From positions 62,001-126,000 of the forward strand of contig SHBP01000005.1 of the NCBI GenBank assembly GCA_004211905.1: a stretch of DNA of 64,000 nt, written 5' to 3'. Position 1 is the first letter of the stretch. The number at the start of each line of letters is the position of its first letter. The position numbers and the translations under genes are program-made. This stretch comes from SAR92 clade bacterium (GTDB lineage Bacteria; Pseudomonadota; Gammaproteobacteria; Pseudomonadales; Porticoccaceae). Below the pieces are notes generated by a model. It had not been told where the DNA came from, made no database searches, and saw nothing but the letters and a program-made list of their open reading frames with translations. Below are positions 57,162 through 63,590 of this stretch, one piece after another.

Positions 57162-57319
57162 AGGTTTGATACGGAGAGAGCGTGCAGTTATAACAGGTGC
57201 GTAGTGGCAGACTAGAGAGGCTTCTTGATTAAGCGCATATACTGATCATGATCTACACTATATCCATAAACCACTTGTTGCGCGGAAAACACGAAATCAT
57301 TTAAATGAATGGTGAAACC

Positions 57320-60300
57320 ATGAAAAGGATCATACTTACATCACTTATCCTATTTTTGACTACGGGTATGGTTTGGGCAACTGTCACACCATCTCCCTCA
57401 GATAGTCGAACTGTGTTTGGACCTCGACCCCTGTTCGCCGCAGGTGGCGCAACAAAAGTCATCGTCGACGATTTTGGCTACATCGACTACACGCTGACTG
57501 ATCAAACTCGCTCAATAATCCAGAACAGTATATCCGACTGGAAAAGCCAGGGAATTCATTATGGAGCTTATTATGGATTGGGCGGCTCAGAAACGAGTGC
57601 GGCAACCGATCCTGCAATACTGGACGTCGCCGGCGCAGTAAATCTTGATGGAACGCTCGAGAGTAATTTTTCATTCACTCGGCAAGGGCAACTCGATTAT
57701 CTACTCGCCTCAGGAAAACTCGCCATCGATCTCGGAACGAGCTATGTGTTCATGGATGGTGGATCACCGAATCTAAGTAATCCGTCTTTCGATTCCGAAA
57801 CATTAAGCGCGTTCAACTCCTACTTAGGAGAGACCTACACATCTGCCGAACTATTGTCTCTCGGCATATCTGAACTGACCAGCTTCGATTATGGCCAGCA
57901 TTTGCGAGATGCAGGTTATACCGACTCTGACAGCATATACAACTCTCCTCCAAGCGATGACCTCTATAATGCGTGGCTTAAACACATGCGCGAAGTTGAG
58001 CGTACTTTTTTTACGCAATGGACTAGCCAACTTCGGGAGTACGGTTCTGAAAATTACGATAGAACGATTTATCTTGGTGCGAATAGATCCACGGGCTCTC
58101 GTCAATGGGCCAATATCGATTTATTTGATTATGGGATAGCCGAAACATTCCTGGATGCACTCGGATGGCCCTATCGAAATTTAGTCCCCGTATACAAAAC
58201 TATTGATAATTTTGATAAGCGATTCTGGTCTTGGAACTTTCCTTCGAATACTAATTTTGAATCGGGAGATGCTAATGCACTTGGTTTCGGCATGCCTCTG
58301 GGTGCTGATGAGGCCGAAAAATTGTTTTTTGCAGAAACATTCAGCGCCGGGGCTCTCGTACAAAACGGCATAAATTGGGTTGATTTTCATCGAAATGATA
58401 AACGAATCGATTCGATACGTTCATTTCTCCAGTTCCCGACACGAAACTCGTCCTTGTTCAATTTGAATACGTATGGCCAATTTGGAATTTTATTAAGTGA
58501 AATAGGCGAGGTCGAAGATGTAGGATCTACGAATCCGTCTTTTAACGGCGCATCTTATCTGCTGTCCGACCTACAATGGATGTACGACGTTTTGTTCGCC
58601 GCGCATCCTGATCGAAGAGATGGTTCTGATTTACTGACGTTAGCGAAACTGCAGAAGTACGACGCCGTCGTATTACCAAACTCCCGCTATCTATCAGACA
58701 GCCAAATAGAAATGCTAACGGCGTATGTGAGCGCGGGAGGCACCCTAATAGGATTCGGCAGAGTCGGTGACCAGGATGACAGCGGAGTGCCGAGAGGGCC
58801 GACACGCAGTTTTGATGATTACTTTGAACAAAACTTAATTAGCGAACTGGGGGCCGGAAAAATCATTGCATTTTCAACGGACATAGGCAAGTCCTACTAC
58901 GATAATGCGGCAAACGAAACGACAAAAACAAGTCTACGAGATTCGTTCACAAATATCGTCGATAGCCAGGTCAGTCCAGACCTCTCTCTAACCTATACCG
59001 GTTCAGGTAGTGGTCCTGGAGAATCACCAGATGTTTTTGTAAACCGATTCAAGTCCGACGACGGGTCGTGGATTGTACACCTCGTCAACCGCAACATGGA
59101 AACAGATGAGAGTGGATCATCAGCGCAGAAGATCTCCGACCTAGTAAGCACAGAAATTACGACGCTCCTTCCTTCGGGGTATGACGACGGTAGCGCTGTC
59201 GTTTCATTTATCGACGCAGACGCTTCAGAAGTAACAACACTTTCATACGAGGTTAACGGATCAAACATTGTTTTCAATCTGCCGGATTTTTCACTATGGT
59301 CAGTCGTACAAATCGGATCAGCAATGAATTCATCAACATCCATAGACGATTTGCCGCATTCAACGCCAGGAACCGAGGGTCAGACACGAACGGATGACAG
59401 AGACGAGGATGGGGAAATACGCTATGTCTATTGGTATTGGAAAGGCGGCAACCACGGAACAGTCCCATTTGATGTTCCATTCGTGGCAACCGATGATCTT
59501 GGATTAAAGTCGATCAGTCTTTATTACCGATTTAGTGCGGATCGAACCGAATGGAGCGACTGGACACTTATCGACTCAACCGAAATTTCTGGAAAAGTGG
59601 CCAGCGGTAATTTTTCTTTCGATGCACCTGATGGGGAGGGCCACTACGAGTTTTCTAGCGAAGCTACAGATTCATCAGATCAGGTGGAGGTTGTTACGCC
59701 TTGGAATGAACAAGCATTCGGAGTTGATCAGACCGCTCCAATTCCACCTGAATCTATATCATCGAACGGTGGTCAGCAAAACGGTTTTTGGACCACCGAT
59801 CTATCCGATCTAAACTTTAGTTGGAGCTCATCAAGTGACAATTTGTCTGGCGTAAATCAGTATCAGGTAAGTATTACAGGCGTTAATGGATCGGCCATCG
59901 TTCTTGAAAATATAATGTCTGGAGAAACATGGACTCCTAACACCAGTGATTTGGTGTCTGGAAACACATACAAATTTAGGTTACGAGTTTCAGATAACGG
60001 GGGAAACTGGAATAGCGGGCATGACGTATTCGATCTTCTTTATGGTGAATCTCCAGTGGCAGATGTGATTAATCCTGCCGTAGCTGCGAGCGATAGTAAG
60101 CTCACAATTTCTTGGGTAAATCCTGATGACTCAAATTATGTTGGAGCAAGAGTGGATGTCAGACCGACGGATGAACCCTATGCTTCTTGGATACAATCTG
60201 GAGTTGTGGGTAAGGATCAGCAAGGTGAAGTGAGTGTCCCGCAATTGATCAATGGAGTTGCGTATCAAGTTCGAGTGATCGCTTTTGCAGCAAATAATAA

Positions 60301-61447
60301 GTACGGAAATTATATGACATTATCTAGTACGTACACTCCAGATGTTGATTCTGATGGAGATGGCGTAAGTGATAGTGCCGATGCTTTCCCTACAGATGCG
60401 ACTGAAACAGTTGATACTGATGGTGACGGTATTGGTAACAATGCTGATACCGATGATGACAACGATGGACTTTCAGATGTCGATGAGGGTGAGCTGGGTA
60501 CTGACCCACTTTTAATTGATACTGATAGTGATGGTGTGAATGATCTTGAAGATGAGTACCCTCTGGACCTTAATGAGTCTGCCGATACTGATGGTGACGG
60601 GGTGGGAGATAACTCTGACTGGGCACCTAACGATAGCACTGAATCTGCTGACACTGATGGCGATGGGGTAGGGGATAACGCCGATGCTTTCCCAACAGAT
60701 GCGACCGAAACGCTCGACACTGACGGGGATGGTGTGGGAGATAACACTGACTGGGCGCCTAACAATAGCGCTGAATCTGCCGACACTGATGGCGATGGGG
60801 TAGGCGACAATGCAGATGCTTTTCCAACAGATGCGACCGAAACGCTTGATACTGACGGCGATGGCGTTGGTAATAACAACGATAATGACGACGATGGTGA
60901 CGGTGTTGTGGATAGCGATGATCCGTTTCCGTTGAATGGGGAATATAGCGCCGATTCTGATGGTGACGGTATGCCAGATGCCTGGGAAACAAATTATGGA
61001 TTAGATCCAAATGATCCCTCTGATGCATCAAGTGACATAGATAACGACGGTATTTCCGCGCTAGATGAATTCTTAGGAGGCACGATACCTTCGGGCTCAG
61101 TCGATTTGGATGGTAATGATAATTATGATGCTTTAACTGATGGACTTTTACTATTGAGAGGGATGTTTGGTCTTGATGGAGATGCTTTGATCACTGGAAC
61201 AGTCGCATCTGATGCAACCTATACATTGGCAGAGGATATTGAGACGCGTATCGCTAATCTTGGTGATCTTGTTGACATTGATGGTAACGGGCAGATAGAT
61301 GCTCTTACAGATGGTTTGCTTACTCTACGTTATCTATTCGGTTTAGAGGGTGATACTTTAATTACTGGGGTGGTGGCCTCTGACGCGACAAGAACTTCTG
61401 CAGAAGAAATTGAGGCACACCTAGAGACCTTGGTGCCAGATTTGTAA
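57320..61447 (+). CDS. Large secreted multi-domain protein: TIM-barrel-hydrolase-like N-terminus, calcium repeats, dockerin-like C-terminus
   Basis: About 1375-1380 residues without a single cysteine that I can see. ATG 57320 is chosen because a signal peptide starts there (MKRIILTSLILFLTTGMVWA) and GGTGA precedes it; ATG 57305 is possible. Residues to about 430 suggest a glycoside-hydrolase-like (beta/alpha) barrel (VDDFGYIDY, YVFMDGG, DYGIAETFLD). About 440-500 resembles the trimerisation/GATase-like domain of GH42 beta-galactosidases (YDAVVLPN, YVSAGGTLIGFG). Then come beta-sandwich domains (about 690-1010), thrombospondin type 3-like calcium repeats (1013-1230), and two C-terminal dockerin-like repeats. 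Substrate unknown; barrel call tentative. Confidence 0.6.
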   Translation: MKRIILTSLILFLTTGMVWATVTPSPSDSRTVFGPRPLFAAGGATKVIVDDFGYIDYTLTDQTRSIIQNSISDWKSQGIHYGAYYGLGGSETSAATDPAILDVAGAVNLDGTLESNFSFTRQGQLDYLLASGKLAIDLGTSYVFMDGGSPNLSNPSFDSETLSAFNSYLGETYTSAELLSLGISELTSFDYGQHLRDAGYTDSDSIYNSPPSDDLYNAWLKHMREVERTFFTQWTSQLREYGSENYDRTIYLGANRSTGSRQWANIDLFDYGIAETFLDALGWPYRNLVPVYKTIDNFDKRFWSWNFPSNTNFESGDANALGFGMPLGADEAEKLFFAETFSAGALVQNGINWVDFHRNDKRIDSIRSFLQFPTRNSSLFNLNTYGQFGILLSEIGEVEDVGSTNPSFNGASYLLSDLQWMYDVLFAAHPDRRDGSDLLTLAKLQKYDAVVLPNSRYLSDSQIEMLTAYVSAGGTLIGFGRVGDQDDSGVPRGPTRSFDDYFEQNLISELGAGKIIAFSTDIGKSYYDNAANETTKTSLRDSFTNIVDSQVSPDLSLTYTGSGSGPGESPDVFVNRFKSDDGSWIVHLVNRNMETDESGSSAQKISDLVSTEITTLLPSGYDDGSAVVSFIDADASEVTTLSYEVNGSNIVFNLPDFSLWSVVQIGSAMNSSTSIDDLPHSTPGTEGQTRTDDRDEDGEIRYVYWYWKGGNHGTVPFDVPFVATDDLGLKSISLYYRFSADRTEWSDWTLIDSTEISGKVASGNFSFDAPDGEGHYEFSSEATDSSDQVEVVTPWNEQAFGVDQTAPIPPESISSNGGQQNGFWTTDLSDLNFSWSSSSDNLSGVNQYQVSITGVNGSAIVLENIMSGETWTPNTSDLVSGNTYKFRLRVSDNGGNWNSGHDVFDLLYGESPVADVINPAVAASDSKLTISWVNPDDSNYVGARVDVRPTDEPYASWIQSGVVGKDQQGEVSVPQLINGVAYQVRVIAFAANNKYGNYMTLSSTYTPDVDSDGDGVSDSADAFPTDATETVDTDGDGIGNNADTDDDNDGLSDVDEGELGTDPLLIDTDSDGVNDLEDEYPLDLNESADTDGDGVGDNSDWAPNDSTESADTDGDGVGDNADAFPTDATETLDTDGDGVGDNTDWAPNNSAESADTDGDGVGDNADAFPTDATETLDTDGDGVGNNNDNDDDGDGVVDSDDPFPLNGEYSADSDGDGMPDAWETNYGLDPNDPSDASSDIDNDGISALDEFLGGTIPSGSVDLDGNDNYDALTDGLLLLRGMFGLDGDALITGTVASDATYTLAEDIETRIANLGDLVDIDGNGQIDALTDGLLTLRYLFGLEGDTLITGVVASDATRTSAEEIEAHLETLVPDL
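60341..60960 (+). repeat. 22-residue calcium-binding repeats encoded by 66-base tandem units
   Basis: The coding sequence repeats a DTDGDGVGDN-type unit with a 66-base (22-residue) period. Alternate units end in DAFPTDAT or DWAPN. A higher-order 132-base period is nearly identical between about 60641 and 60773 onward. The pattern is that of thrombospondin type 3 repeats, which bind calcium. Confidence 0.85.
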
Positions 61448-61709
61448 GAGTGATTGTTGTGGAGCCGCGATTTAAATGGCCTATTATTTTCAGCATTGTT
61501 ACCAATACACGCATAATTACTGGGTAAAAACTATCGCATTTGTGTCAATATGCAATTTGGATATAAGATTCACTGTCGAAGTGGGTGGTTTTTGTTTGTG
61601 CGAACGTAATTTGTATTGGGTGTTAGATAAAATAAGTTGCAGGCAAGTGGAATAATTTTGACTATTCATAGTAAATCAATGCCTTTACTTTGGGGAGAAT
61701 CCTCCGGTT

Positions 61710-63590
61710 ATGAACCAAAATTATTATTTGCTAGCATGTTTCAAAAGGTCTCTGGACATGAAATATTGGACTGTGATGTTAAAACGTATTGTTCAGCTTA
61801 AGGTTTTACTGGTGGCCTGTAATGTATCAGTCATGGCCGCAGCTCAGGAAATATATCCTCGTGAAGATAAAATAGCGAAGCTAAGCAATAGTCATTTCTC
61901 AGAAAAAAGTTCTTTTGTGGAGTACCAGGGAACGTTTGATCTTTCTGTTGAAAACGTAATTTTTAATAGGCAAGAAAATCGAATTAATTTTGTGATTATT
62001 GGAGATGGTTATACTGAAAATGATCTAGATAGCCAGTATAGGCCTATGGTGGAAACGACGTTAGACTATTTCTTTTACAATACAACGAAATCCAGTCCTT
62101 ACCCTCGATACAAGAACTTTTTCAACACATACCGTATAGATATCGCGAGTAATGAATCAGGAGTCGATGATCTTGAAGCGGGCATATATCGAGATACTAT
62201 TTTAGGTGGGGAAAGGGGATGCACTGACTATACTATTGGAATCTGTGGGGCTGACTGGTCACTTGTTAACGCTGCATTTAGACAAGCTGAAGAATTAGAG
62301 GGCTTTGTAACCGACTGGCATTTAGTGATGCTTCATGATGATGCCTGGCATGCTGCGGCCCACTACACTCCAGAAGGACCTGTCCTCCCGATTTACTCAG
62401 CACATTATACCGGTGATGTCGGAGATATGAGAGATGTTGCTATGCATGAGGGGGGTCATGCGTGGCACGGCTTGGCCGATGAATACGGCGGTGATCCGGG
62501 TACTTACCCCTATGCAGAACCATCTGAAATAAATGTAACCACTGACCCTCAGGGCTCAAAATGGAATCATTGGCTAGGGTTCACAATGCCCGATGGCTCA
62601 CTGGTAGACGTGTATGAAGGTGGGCGATATTACGACAAGGGTATCTATAAACCGACTACAGGTAGCAAAATGAATGGCTTTGAAGGAGCTTTTAACTGTC
62701 ATTCATTAAGTAATAATTGTGGCCACAATGCAGTTGGTATTGAAAAGATTATTTTAGATATTTATGCCCTGGTAGATCCGATTGACTCGTATTTGCCAAC
62801 GCAAAACGTATTGGTCGATGCTACTGAAATGTATGTTGGTGTTATCGATTCCAACGTCATAATGATCAACTGGTACATTAATGGTGAACTTGTCCAAGAA
62901 AAGGGGTCTTCAACCCTAAATCTTGTTGAATACTCGTTGCTACCTGGTAGTCATATCATCACTGCTAAAGCATGGGATGAGGTAATTGCGTTTGCTTTCT
63001 CCCTAGACACAGCTCCCCATGAGCTGGACTTGGTGCGAAGAAACTTAGATCAACTTGAGCAGAGTGTTAGTTGGAATATTACTCTCCAAGACAATGATAC
63101 AGATCAGATCGCTAATATTTATGATAACTGTCCTGAAATAGCCAACCAAGCGCAATTGAATACTGATTCTGATGGGGATGGTGATCTTTGCGATGACGAC
63201 GATGACAATGACGGTTACAGCGATGATGTCGATATATATCCTTTAAATAATTTATATTCGGCCGATAGCGATGCAGATGGTATGCCTGATGCTTGGGAAA
63301 TCAAGTACGGTCTAAACCCCAATGATGCTTCGGATGCAGCCAGTGATCAAGACAATGACGGAACAACTGCGTTAGAAGAATTCTTGGCCGGAACAAGCCC
63401 GTCAGGAGTGATCTTAGATATTGATGGGAATGGTGAGGTTGATGCCCTTACTGATGGTTTACTTGTTTTGCGGTACTTGTTCGGTCTAGAGGGTGATCCT
63501 TTAATTAACGGTGTTGTGGCAGAGGATGCTACAAGAACCTCAGCAGAACAGATAGAGTCTTACCTCGATGAATTGATGCCACAGCTATAA
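61710..63590 (+). CDS. Secreted M64-type metallopeptidase with calcium repeats and dockerin-like C-terminus
   Basis: A 626-residue protein. A signal sequence lies near the N-terminus (RIVQLKVLLVACNVSVMAAAQ); the exact ATG among three is uncertain, and 61710 has GGGGAG upstream. FVIIGDGYTENDL (about 93) begins the peptidase domain. The zinc motif HEGGHAWHGLADEYGG starts near H246, the M64 (IgA peptidase) signature HExGHxxxxLADEY. A beta-sandwich region follows (about 370-450), then two or three calcium repeats (480-560), and a C-terminal DGNGEVDALTDGLLVLRY-type module. The last module closely matches the end of the upstream protein. Extracellular proteolysis is likely. Confidence 0.82.
   Translation: MNQNYYLLACFKRSLDMKYWTVMLKRIVQLKVLLVACNVSVMAAAQEIYPREDKIAKLSNSHFSEKSSFVEYQGTFDLSVENVIFNRQENRINFVIIGDGYTENDLDSQYRPMVETTLDYFFYNTTKSSPYPRYKNFFNTYRIDIASNESGVDDLEAGIYRDTILGGERGCTDYTIGICGADWSLVNAAFRQAEELEGFVTDWHLVMLHDDAWHAAAHYTPEGPVLPIYSAHYTGDVGDMRDVAMHEGGHAWHGLADEYGGDPGTYPYAEPSEINVTTDPQGSKWNHWLGFTMPDGSLVDVYEGGRYYDKGIYKPTTGSKMNGFEGAFNCHSLSNNCGHNAVGIEKIILDIYALVDPIDSYLPTQNVLVDATEMYVGVIDSNVIMINWYINGELVQEKGSSTLNLVEYSLLPGSHIITAKAWDEVIAFAFSLDTAPHELDLVRRNLDQLEQSVSWNITLQDNDTDQIANIYDNCPEIANQAQLNTDSDGDGDLCDDDDDNDGYSDDVDIYPLNNLYSADSDADGMPDAWEIKYGLNPNDASDAASDQDNDGTTALEEFLAGTSPSGVILDIDGNGEVDALTDGLLVLRYLFGLEGDPLINGVVAEDATRTSAEQIESYLDELMPQL

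Follow-up and report, generated by a model that had tools for sequence, protein, structure and literature searches.

Two adjacent genes of a SAR92 clade bacterium (Gammaproteobacteria, Porticoccaceae) encode proteins, termed here carriers 1 and 2, that share a C-terminal unit of ∼57 residues. Both lie in the window, that is the whole stretch of 64,000 nucleotides that was analysed (assembly GCA_004211905.1, contig SHBP01000005.1, positions 62,001 to 126,000 of the forward strand). Taken together, the searches and structural models make it probable that units of this kind build a dockerin-like plug, and that plug-tagged exported proteins are docked on a cohesin-bearing stalk at the cell surface. 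The carriers and their units, in window coordinates, are:

57305..61447, + strand: carrier 1, an open reading frame (ORF) of 1380 residues with an fn3 domain, TSP3-like calcium repeats and two C-terminal docking units
61094..61444, + strand: the complete two-unit dockerin-like module of carrier 1, which forms the first row of alignment A1 and was modelled with AlphaFold2
61103..61273, + strand: docking unit A of carrier 1, residues 1267–1323 (E 5e-15, 63% identity to the carrier 2 unit)
61274..61444, + strand: docking unit B of carrier 1, residues 1324–1380 (E 7e-25, 77% identity to the carrier 2 unit)
61710..63590, + strand: carrier 2, an ORF of 626 residues with an M64-like peptidase domain, a TSP3-like linker and one docking unit
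63417..63587, + strand: the single docking unit of carrier 2, residues 570–626, located by unit and profile searches

An earlier note on this DNA, made from the sequence alone, had claimed that both proteins end in a common block, present twice in the first and once in the second. The comparison between the carriers (E 7e-25 and 5e-15, well outside what chance would give) and the unit coordinates confirm both statements. The stretch that had been given for the block, positions 60930–63590, does contain it, but the start of that stretch falls inside carrier 1, in its TSP3-like linker. When compared with a profile of units from its own genome, a profile that includes unit A itself, unit A scores E 2e-28.

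The 57-residue unit of carrier 2 was used as the query against the whole genome to which the window belongs (2.28 Mb, 91% complete; the ‘own’ genome in what follows). This search returned 25 clear copies in 13 ORFs, so the unit is not limited to the two window proteins. Two weak matches on contig C17, one at E 0.015 with four internal stops and one at E 0.033, were dropped. In the 13 own carriers the unit is C-terminal in eight, N-terminal (right after the signal peptide) in four and internal in one, and all 13 have a signal-peptide-like hydrophobic start, 12 of them by score and the thirteenth, the L259 ORF, by eye.

A scan of named genomes, from which the best 80 of 106 relatives were kept (79 loci), extended the distribution mostly to Porticoccaceae, SAR92 and other Gammaproteobacteria, together with some cyanobacterial, magnetococcal, burkholderial and deltaproteobacterial records. 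Among the 92 unit-bearing ORFs of these records the unit is C-terminal in 52, N-terminal in 30, internal in five and unassigned in five. The shared terminal module of the earlier note is thus real, but it is not confined to C-termini. Because two units are present in 82 of the 92 ORFs, and stand exactly 57 residues apart in 60 of those 82, the functional module most likely consists of two units and spans ∼114 residues. Single-unit ORFs are a minority (10/92, some of them cut by contig ends), and carrier 2 is a minority single-unit form. A hydrophobic N-terminal segment is found in 63 of the 76 carriers with their own start, compared with 83 of 172 control ORFs; the carriers are thus not the unrelated cytoplasmic proteins that the earlier note would have counted against itself. 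By eye, module sequences differ between C-terminal and N-terminal carriers. Loci L054, L066 and L070 (Prochloraceae metagenome-assembled genome, MAG) hold carriers that start without a signal-peptide-like segment, one of them with RTX-like repeats by eye, which suggests another export route.

The unit follows the pattern DxDGN...DALTDGLLxLRxxFGL..., and the two units within one module are 42–82% alike (mean 53%). Alignment A1 comprises 71 modules: the window module, plus those 70 two-unit modules that were left of the 82 once nine near-duplicates and three truncated copies had been removed. Both units have aspartate at loop positions 1, 3 and 13 in 70–71 of the 71 rows. Position 5 holds N, D or S and, once, E; an acidic residue, D or E, fills position 9 in 48/71 rows for the first unit and 50/71 for the second; and the arginine of the helix after the loop is invariant in both. 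The AlphaFold2 model of the window module contains six helices (predicted local distance difference test, pLDDT, 96; predicted template modelling score, pTM, 0.88), with those at residues 13–24 and 70–81 following the loops. The top two profile matches in the PDB are the cohesin-bound Clostridium thermocellum dockerins 1ohz and 2ccl, with marginal E-values of 0.016 and 0.02, and Dockerin_1 is the Pfam family matched most often among A1 rows (32/71 at E ≤ 0.1, best 4.7e-6). Unrelated Pfam matches of A1 rows, for example Cytochrom_B_N_2 in 10/71, were set aside as chance. The best Dockerin_1 score in the own genome is 16.1–16.7 bits, compared with a cut-off of 22.9.

A structural second look with VIA gave dockerins in all of rows 1–7 (Z 3.5–3.8 over 55–70 residues), with the next row at 2.9. 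Structure prediction, which the earlier note had proposed as a check, therefore answered in part: dockerins fill the top seven VIA rows, but the Foldseek match to a dockerin is not significant. The proposal of a calcium-binding, dockerin-like F-hand nevertheless draws support from the loop pattern and from the high places that dockerins take in searches by sequence and by fold, each of which is weak alone. The two duplicated calcium-loop plus helix motifs of a dockerin are present, with the calcium loops recognised by their sequence pattern, whereas the normal length and loop and a Dockerin_1 score above the cut-off are absent. Sequence and model hence weakly indicate a divergent, enlarged dockerin-like module that would lie outside Dockerin_1.

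A cohesin-like partner, for which the earlier note had advised looking, was found as a cohesin-fold family that is co-distributed with the module. Pfam Cohesin gave nothing at E ≤ 10 in the own genome. In 84 genomes of the family, PF00963 reached E ≤ 0.1 in nine and its cut-off in three, several of the matches sitting just upstream of a module in the same frame or chain. Alignment A2 holds 30 cohesin-like domains obtained with iterated profiles, near-complete and non-identical ones only, and does not include the own-genome domain; the own partner was found because of the family-wide search and the A2 profile built from its matches, Pfam Cohesin alone having missed it. Pfam Cohesin matches 16 of the 30 A2 domains at E ≤ 0.01, and the best PDB profile match of A2 is the cohesin of Ruminococcus flavefaciens scaffoldin C, at a marginal E of 0.0085. 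The cohesin-like domain of locus L059, 39% identical to the own-genome domain, was modelled from 11 alignment rows (pLDDT 87, pTM 0.81). In Foldseek, rows 1–20 are all cohesin or scaffoldin-entry chains (best E 9.9e-4, with no other row below 0.001), and in VIA rows 1–36 are cohesins or cohesin-bearing chains (best Z 12.4, root-mean-square deviation 2.1, 118/136 residues), pilin chains entering the list after them at Z 8.9. According to this model the partner family has the cohesin fold, as seen on the L059 relative rather than on the own domain.

In some proteins a single chain carries both cohesin and module, as in adaptor scaffoldins. L059:3808-6177 encodes a module and two cohesins, the N-terminal of which scores 44.9 bits against Pfam Cohesin. 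It is followed by a 176-residue protein with a single cohesin and by a cohesin protein of 1775 residues that has DUF11 repeats. This compact system lies outside the searched family genomes. A 1.4-Mb assembly, G023, contains a giant frame (L161:2-14368) of at least 4789 residues that runs off its contig and holds 26 cadherin stretches and one cohesin-like domain; it adjoins HlyD, ABC-transporter and outer-membrane-efflux genes, a type-I-secretion-like arrangement. In G028, a 1998-residue protein (L187:773-6769) has an N-terminal cohesin-like domain and a glycanase-like region that scores 94.5 bits to EglC, under the cut-off, and this is, from its sequence, probably a cohesin on an enzyme instead of on a stalk.

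Within the 84 family genomes (module called at E ≤ 1e-5, cohesin at E ≤ 0.001), the module occurs in 28 and the cohesin in 19, with both in 18 (Fisher p 2e-10). In the window's genus the corresponding figures are 25, 19 and 18 among 35 genomes (p 0.001), and in a phylum-wide draw they are 7/397 and 6/397, all six among the seven (p 1e-12); collapsed to genera, the same 4/224 carry module and cohesin. The cohesin profile has no match in the 390 module-negative genomes of the phylum sample, which is the fairer part of the co-occurrence test. In G014, the sole cohesin-positive, module-negative family genome, the cohesin frame is broken by stops. Cohesin-only genes stand beside module-bearing genes in G007, G022, G024, G464, L059, L089, L096 and L131, and in L059 and L131 the neighbouring module-bearing gene also has a cohesin; another such adjacent pair, in a partly masked stretch, is not counted here. 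G022 and G024, genomes of ∼2.5 Mb, each have one match of each kind.

The own genome encodes exactly one cohesin-like domain (G000:C12:117298-117678, E 4.4e-33 with the A2 profile), which belongs to the following protein:

C12:117172-121098 (= L178:7172-11098): the own scaffold, 1308 residues, with the cohesin-like domain N-terminal at residues 35–170

This scaffold also contains cadherin-like, HYR and invasin-type repeats and a choice-of-anchor U domain, and it ends in a JDVT-CTERM tail (34.1 bits in one of two scans). Judged from the sequence, it has the GGGC motif, hydrophobic helix and arginine cluster of a JDVT-CTERM surface protein, and MrtJ, the JDVT-processing protease, is encoded in the same genome (111.9 bits, cut-off 75). 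The JDVT-CTERM cut-off was reached by 5/6 such scaffolds scanned. At E ≤ 0.01, JDVT-CTERM was found in 19/25 module-positive genomes tested versus 1/6 module-negative ones (G014), and the cut-off itself was reached in 17/31 genomes tested. The earlier note's suggestion of attachment to a shared surface scaffold is thus supported by a co-distributed cohesin-fold partner and by a surface-sorting signal on the own partner.

The MrtJ gene adjoins the cohesin gene in G016, G024, G007 and G025 (94.7–97.5 bits), the order in G024 being cohesin scaffold, MrtJ and module carrier, flanked by genes that we take by eye to be nusA and tpiA. The own MrtJ gene (L257:5340-5813, G000:C23) stands alone between dnaJ-like and secG/tpiA-like genes, named by eye, and the equivalent locus of relatives (L184:5518-9736, L186:64-4363) holds cohesin scaffold, MrtJ and/or module carrier together. 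The own scaffold seems to have moved away from the MrtJ locus or to have been replaced there. A second own JDVT-CTERM protein, an 814-residue open frame with no cohesin match (L258:2-2446, G000:C16), lies on the contig of one carrier, and JDVT frames of ∼820–850 residues occur in several relatives.

In the proposed model, carriers and scaffold would be exported by Sec and, on the pattern of the MYXO-CTERM pathway outlined in PMC11980579, would rely on type II secretion to pass the outer membrane. The scaffold would be cleaved by MrtJ at its JDVT-CTERM signal and then lipid-anchored, presumably on the outer membrane. Each unit of the ∼114-residue plug comprises a loop of the calcium-binding type (D-x-D-x-N/D-x-x-x-D-A-L-T-D), then a helix, plus an extra segment with a further helix. 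The plug, including those of the window proteins, would bind the single N-terminal cohesin of the 1308-residue stalk, in a manner that may depend on calcium, an ion abundant in seawater. With similar faces on its two units, the plug could perhaps bind either way round, a dual mode that the title of 2vn5 states for a clostridial dockerin. The outcome would be a cell-surface enzyme array with interchangeable cargo, the plug standing at either chain end or inside.

Several results weigh against this docking model, and they concern the module, the partner and their joint distribution. A classical dockerin has a 12-residue loop and 60–70 residues in all. The module, at ∼114 residues, has almost double the normal dockerin length, and its loop is one residue longer, the A1 profile alignment to 1ohz needing a gap. 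In Pfam the window proteins have no match to Dockerin_1 at E ≤ 1, and the window row is not among the 32/71; the dockerin Z-scores of 3.5–3.8 are low; and Foldseek on the module model gave nothing at E ≤ 0.001, with 2ccl at E 3.0. On the partner side, the own cohesin-like domain escapes detection by Pfam Cohesin, and the JDVT-CTERM tail of the own scaffold is marginal in the other scan (27.1 bits versus a cut-off of 27). The N-terminal-cohesin proteins of G038, G039 and G028 have no JDVT-CTERM end, so the cohesin is not always on a JDVT stalk. One own cohesin is few for 13 carriers. A lipobox-like start was recognised by a simple pattern in 6/79 carriers, carrier 2 included, and such carriers, if they are real lipoproteins, count against docking because a lipid-anchored protein would hardly need it. 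The co-occurrence p-values overstate the case for three reasons: relatedness among the genomes; the seeding of A2 in module-bearing genomes, near modules, which favours joint finds; and a ceiling of 10–11 scored candidates per genome in the phylum searches.

Moreover, ten of the 28 module-positive family genomes have no cohesin at E ≤ 0.001, and a broader profile, A4, found nothing in the same ten at E ≤ 0.1, with one match at 0.37; because the own-genome domain is itself a member of A4, the E-value that A4 gives for it carries no independent weight. In four of the ten (G001, G015, G027 and G035), a contig opens with the tail of a JDVT scaffold (48–75% identity to the own scaffold), so that the N-terminal part is missing from the assembly; in G015 the genes beyond the tail match, by eye, those beside the own scaffold. 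However, G033 has a scaffold-tail paralogue besides its intact scaffold, and since paralogues exist the four tails excuse but do not prove a cohesin there. No clear partner was found in G009, G017, G019, G037, G080 and G081: in G017 the gene order around the G031 cohesin gene is present and the cohesin gene itself is absent, and G081 has a distant partial scaffold of 31–37% identity.

These six genomes, with neither clear cohesin nor scaffold, fit an alternative in which the module is a dockerin-like plug but the window carriers bind another, undetected receptor, the cohesin scaffold serving otherwise. The excess of own carriers over cohesins, 13 to 1, and the visible difference between the modules of C-terminal and N-terminal carriers point the same way. 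On the other hand, the own genome, at 91% completeness, contains one cohesin-like domain, the scaffold tails of four apparent exceptions are cut by a contig start, and no second candidate receptor turned up, although none was systematically sought; on balance such a receptor is unlikely. A further alternative takes the module for a domain that is stabilised by calcium, has a structural or self-associating role and binds no cohesin, and the cohesin-like domain for an adhesin beta-sandwich. Pilins and adhesins do share similar folds (VIA rows 37, 42 and 49; Foldseek rows 21, 22 and 25), and the several chains that carry both domains would alone be enough to give co-occurrence. This account sits uneasily with cohesin-only genes that adjoin module-only genes, with the 0/390 matches of the cohesin profile in module-negative genomes of the phylum sample, and with the broken cohesin frame of module-free G014, and we regard it as quite improbable.

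The earlier note had also raised the idea of a secretion signal, and the module could on that basis be a secretion or sorting signal like PEP-CTERM, GlyGly-CTERM or type IX tags. Most carriers do look secreted, given the 63/76 hydrophobic starts against 83/172 in control ORFs, and most copies (52/92) are C-terminal. Yet 30/92 are N-terminal and five internal, with four N-terminal and one internal in the own genome, and the 12 own carriers scored lack a strongly hydrophobic C-terminal segment, their most hydrophobic 18-residue stretch reaching at most 1.33 compared with 1.78 in the scaffold. That idea was therefore not borne out and is extremely improbable: because the module also occurs at N-termini and inside proteins, it is better described as a position-independent docking module than as a C-terminal secretion signal. 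The docking model thus remains the preferred reading, and the remaining parts of the carriers indicate what would be docked.

The cargo named by Pfam in the own genome includes two M12B reprolysin-like proteins of ∼2500 residues with LVIVD repeats and P-domains; in L028:8735-16375 and L034:8232-15713 reprolysin, P-domain, LVIVD and BspA-type leucine-rich repeats form an unusual mix. Further peptidases are another M12-type metallopeptidase, the M64 protein and a subtilase (S8) with a weakly esterase-like half. Sugar-related cargo comprises a GH3 enzyme with CBM6, a GH16 enzyme and a further CBM6 protein whose end is weakly esterase-like; some carriers are probable algal-sugar or laminarin enzymes. 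The others are a C-type-lectin-like protein and a remainder with linker-type domains alone or none. TSP3 repeats precede many C-terminal plugs, and Ig-like domains follow the N-terminal plugs of the own genome. In the window proteins the domains outside the docking units are:

60953..61018, + strand: TSP3-like calcium repeat DSDGDGMPDAWE of carrier 1, shortly upstream of the module (Pfam TSP3_bac, residues 1217–1238)
61977..62591, + strand: M64 peptidase domain of carrier 2, residues 90–294 (Pfam Peptidase_M64, E 2.9e-19, 69.8 bits, cut-off 26)
63264..63329, + strand: TSP3-like calcium repeat DSDADGMPDAWE of carrier 2, before the unit (Pfam TSP3_bac, residues 519–540, 13.9 bits, cut-off 25)

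The block DSDxDGMPDAWE, which the earlier note had read as a calcium repeat, is indeed marked by TSP3_bac in both proteins, below the cut-off; the whole-protein score of carrier 1 is 20.8 bits against a cut-off of 25. Carrier 1 starts with a hydrophobic, signal peptide-like segment and has an fn3 domain over the cut-off (E 3e-8), and its GH42M match, a beta-galactosidase-trimerisation-like stretch, reaches only 20 bits versus a cut-off of 25.8. Its N-terminal region (window 57305-60080) belongs to no confident family, and the only pointers to a glycoside hydrolase are weak matches of the GH42M, GLMA and ThuA-like kinds. NCBIfam gave just thrombospondin-repeat and other look-alikes on both window proteins, far under the cut-off. 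The signal region of carrier 2 (window 61710-61850) contains a lipobox-like LVAC, a pattern match only, and this protein is possibly a lipoprotein and not freely secreted. An antisense open frame of 189 residues (window 60310-60879, − strand) mirrors the TSP3 repeats of carrier 1 and most likely arises from the composition of those repeats instead of being a gene.

The proposed system is of the non-cellulosomal cohesin-dockerin type, and its closest precedents are the ‘planctosome’ and the unexplained modules of Saccharophagus, both described below. It resembles the cellulosomes of Clostridium and Ruminococcus in its dockerin-tagged exported enzymes, cohesin scaffold and common cohesin fold, but differs in the one cohesin on its own scaffold, the Gram-negative host and the enlarged module. 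A multi-cohesin scaffoldin and cellulases, which define a cellulosome, are lacking: Pfam named no cellulase family among the 13 own carriers, one of which was scanned without its first ∼80 residues. As described in PMC6461901, the ‘planctosome’ is a hypothetical cohesin-dockerin peptidase complex of the freshwater planctomycete Nemodlikiaceae, and it is like the present system in its cohesin and dockerin modules, TSP3, P-domains and M12B Reprolysin_4-like cargo, in the HYR domain of a cohesin protein, and in a proposed outer-surface tether. By that description it differs in phylum and in its anchor, a lamin-tail protein there and a JDVT-CTERM stalk in SAR92 (on the own scaffold, a Pfam search at E ≤ 0.1 shows no lamin tail domain), and the SAR92 system adds the GH3/CBM6 and GH16 enzymes and the ∼114-residue module. 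Saccharophagus degradans 2-40, by its description in PMC2386152 a marine polysaccharide degrader that likewise has both motifs, possesses two dockerin-like and six cohesin-like ORFs, and surface anchoring by protein contacts was suggested; partners and anchors are not worked out in that account. Non-cellulosomal use and suggested surface attachment are also shared with the cohesin-dockerin proteins of ANME archaea, whose cargo, in another domain of life, includes ABC-transporter binding proteins according to PMC9012536.

As for the MrtJ/JDVT-CTERM pair, the own scaffold bears the signal and MrtJ adjoins the cohesin gene in four genomes; PMC11980579 presents a two-gene neighbourhood and leaves the role of the sorted protein unstated, whereas here that protein is cohesin-bearing. 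For North Sea gammaproteobacterial MAGs, SAR92 included, PMC8371827 treats GH3, GH16 and CBM6 laminarin loci, and its text mentions neither ‘dockerin’ nor ‘cohesin’. Among open-licence PMC papers, none was found that ties SAR92 or Porticoccaceae to dockerins.

The chances appear even that planktonic SAR92-type bacteria, including those with assemblies of 1.4–1.7 Mb, run a full surface enzyme-docking economy. In it, proteases and probable laminarin enzymes would bear the dockerin-like plugs, JDVT-CTERM stalks would present the cohesin receptors, and streamlined genomes would add cohesin-plus-plug adaptors as well as giant cadherin-repeat proteins that include a cohesin and probably leave the cell by type I secretion. 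For bacteria of the open ocean, diffusion threatens to carry off secreted enzymes together with their products. Modular surface docking would explain how free-living bloom bacteria retain both, and the plugs together with the surface-anchored socket suggest that the enzymes may be parked on the cell's own surface, much as in cellulose-digesting gut bacteria. If this is true, the 114-residue plug would count as a new type of dockerin, and displaying a cohesin receptor would be the task of the orphan MrtJ/JDVT-CTERM sorting pair, for which our results suggest a function. The findings supply a candidate receptor–ligand pair, possibly a new coupling pair for biotechnology, and would shift cohesin-dockerin assembly from anoxic cellulose digestion to the turnover of algal biomass in the surface ocean.

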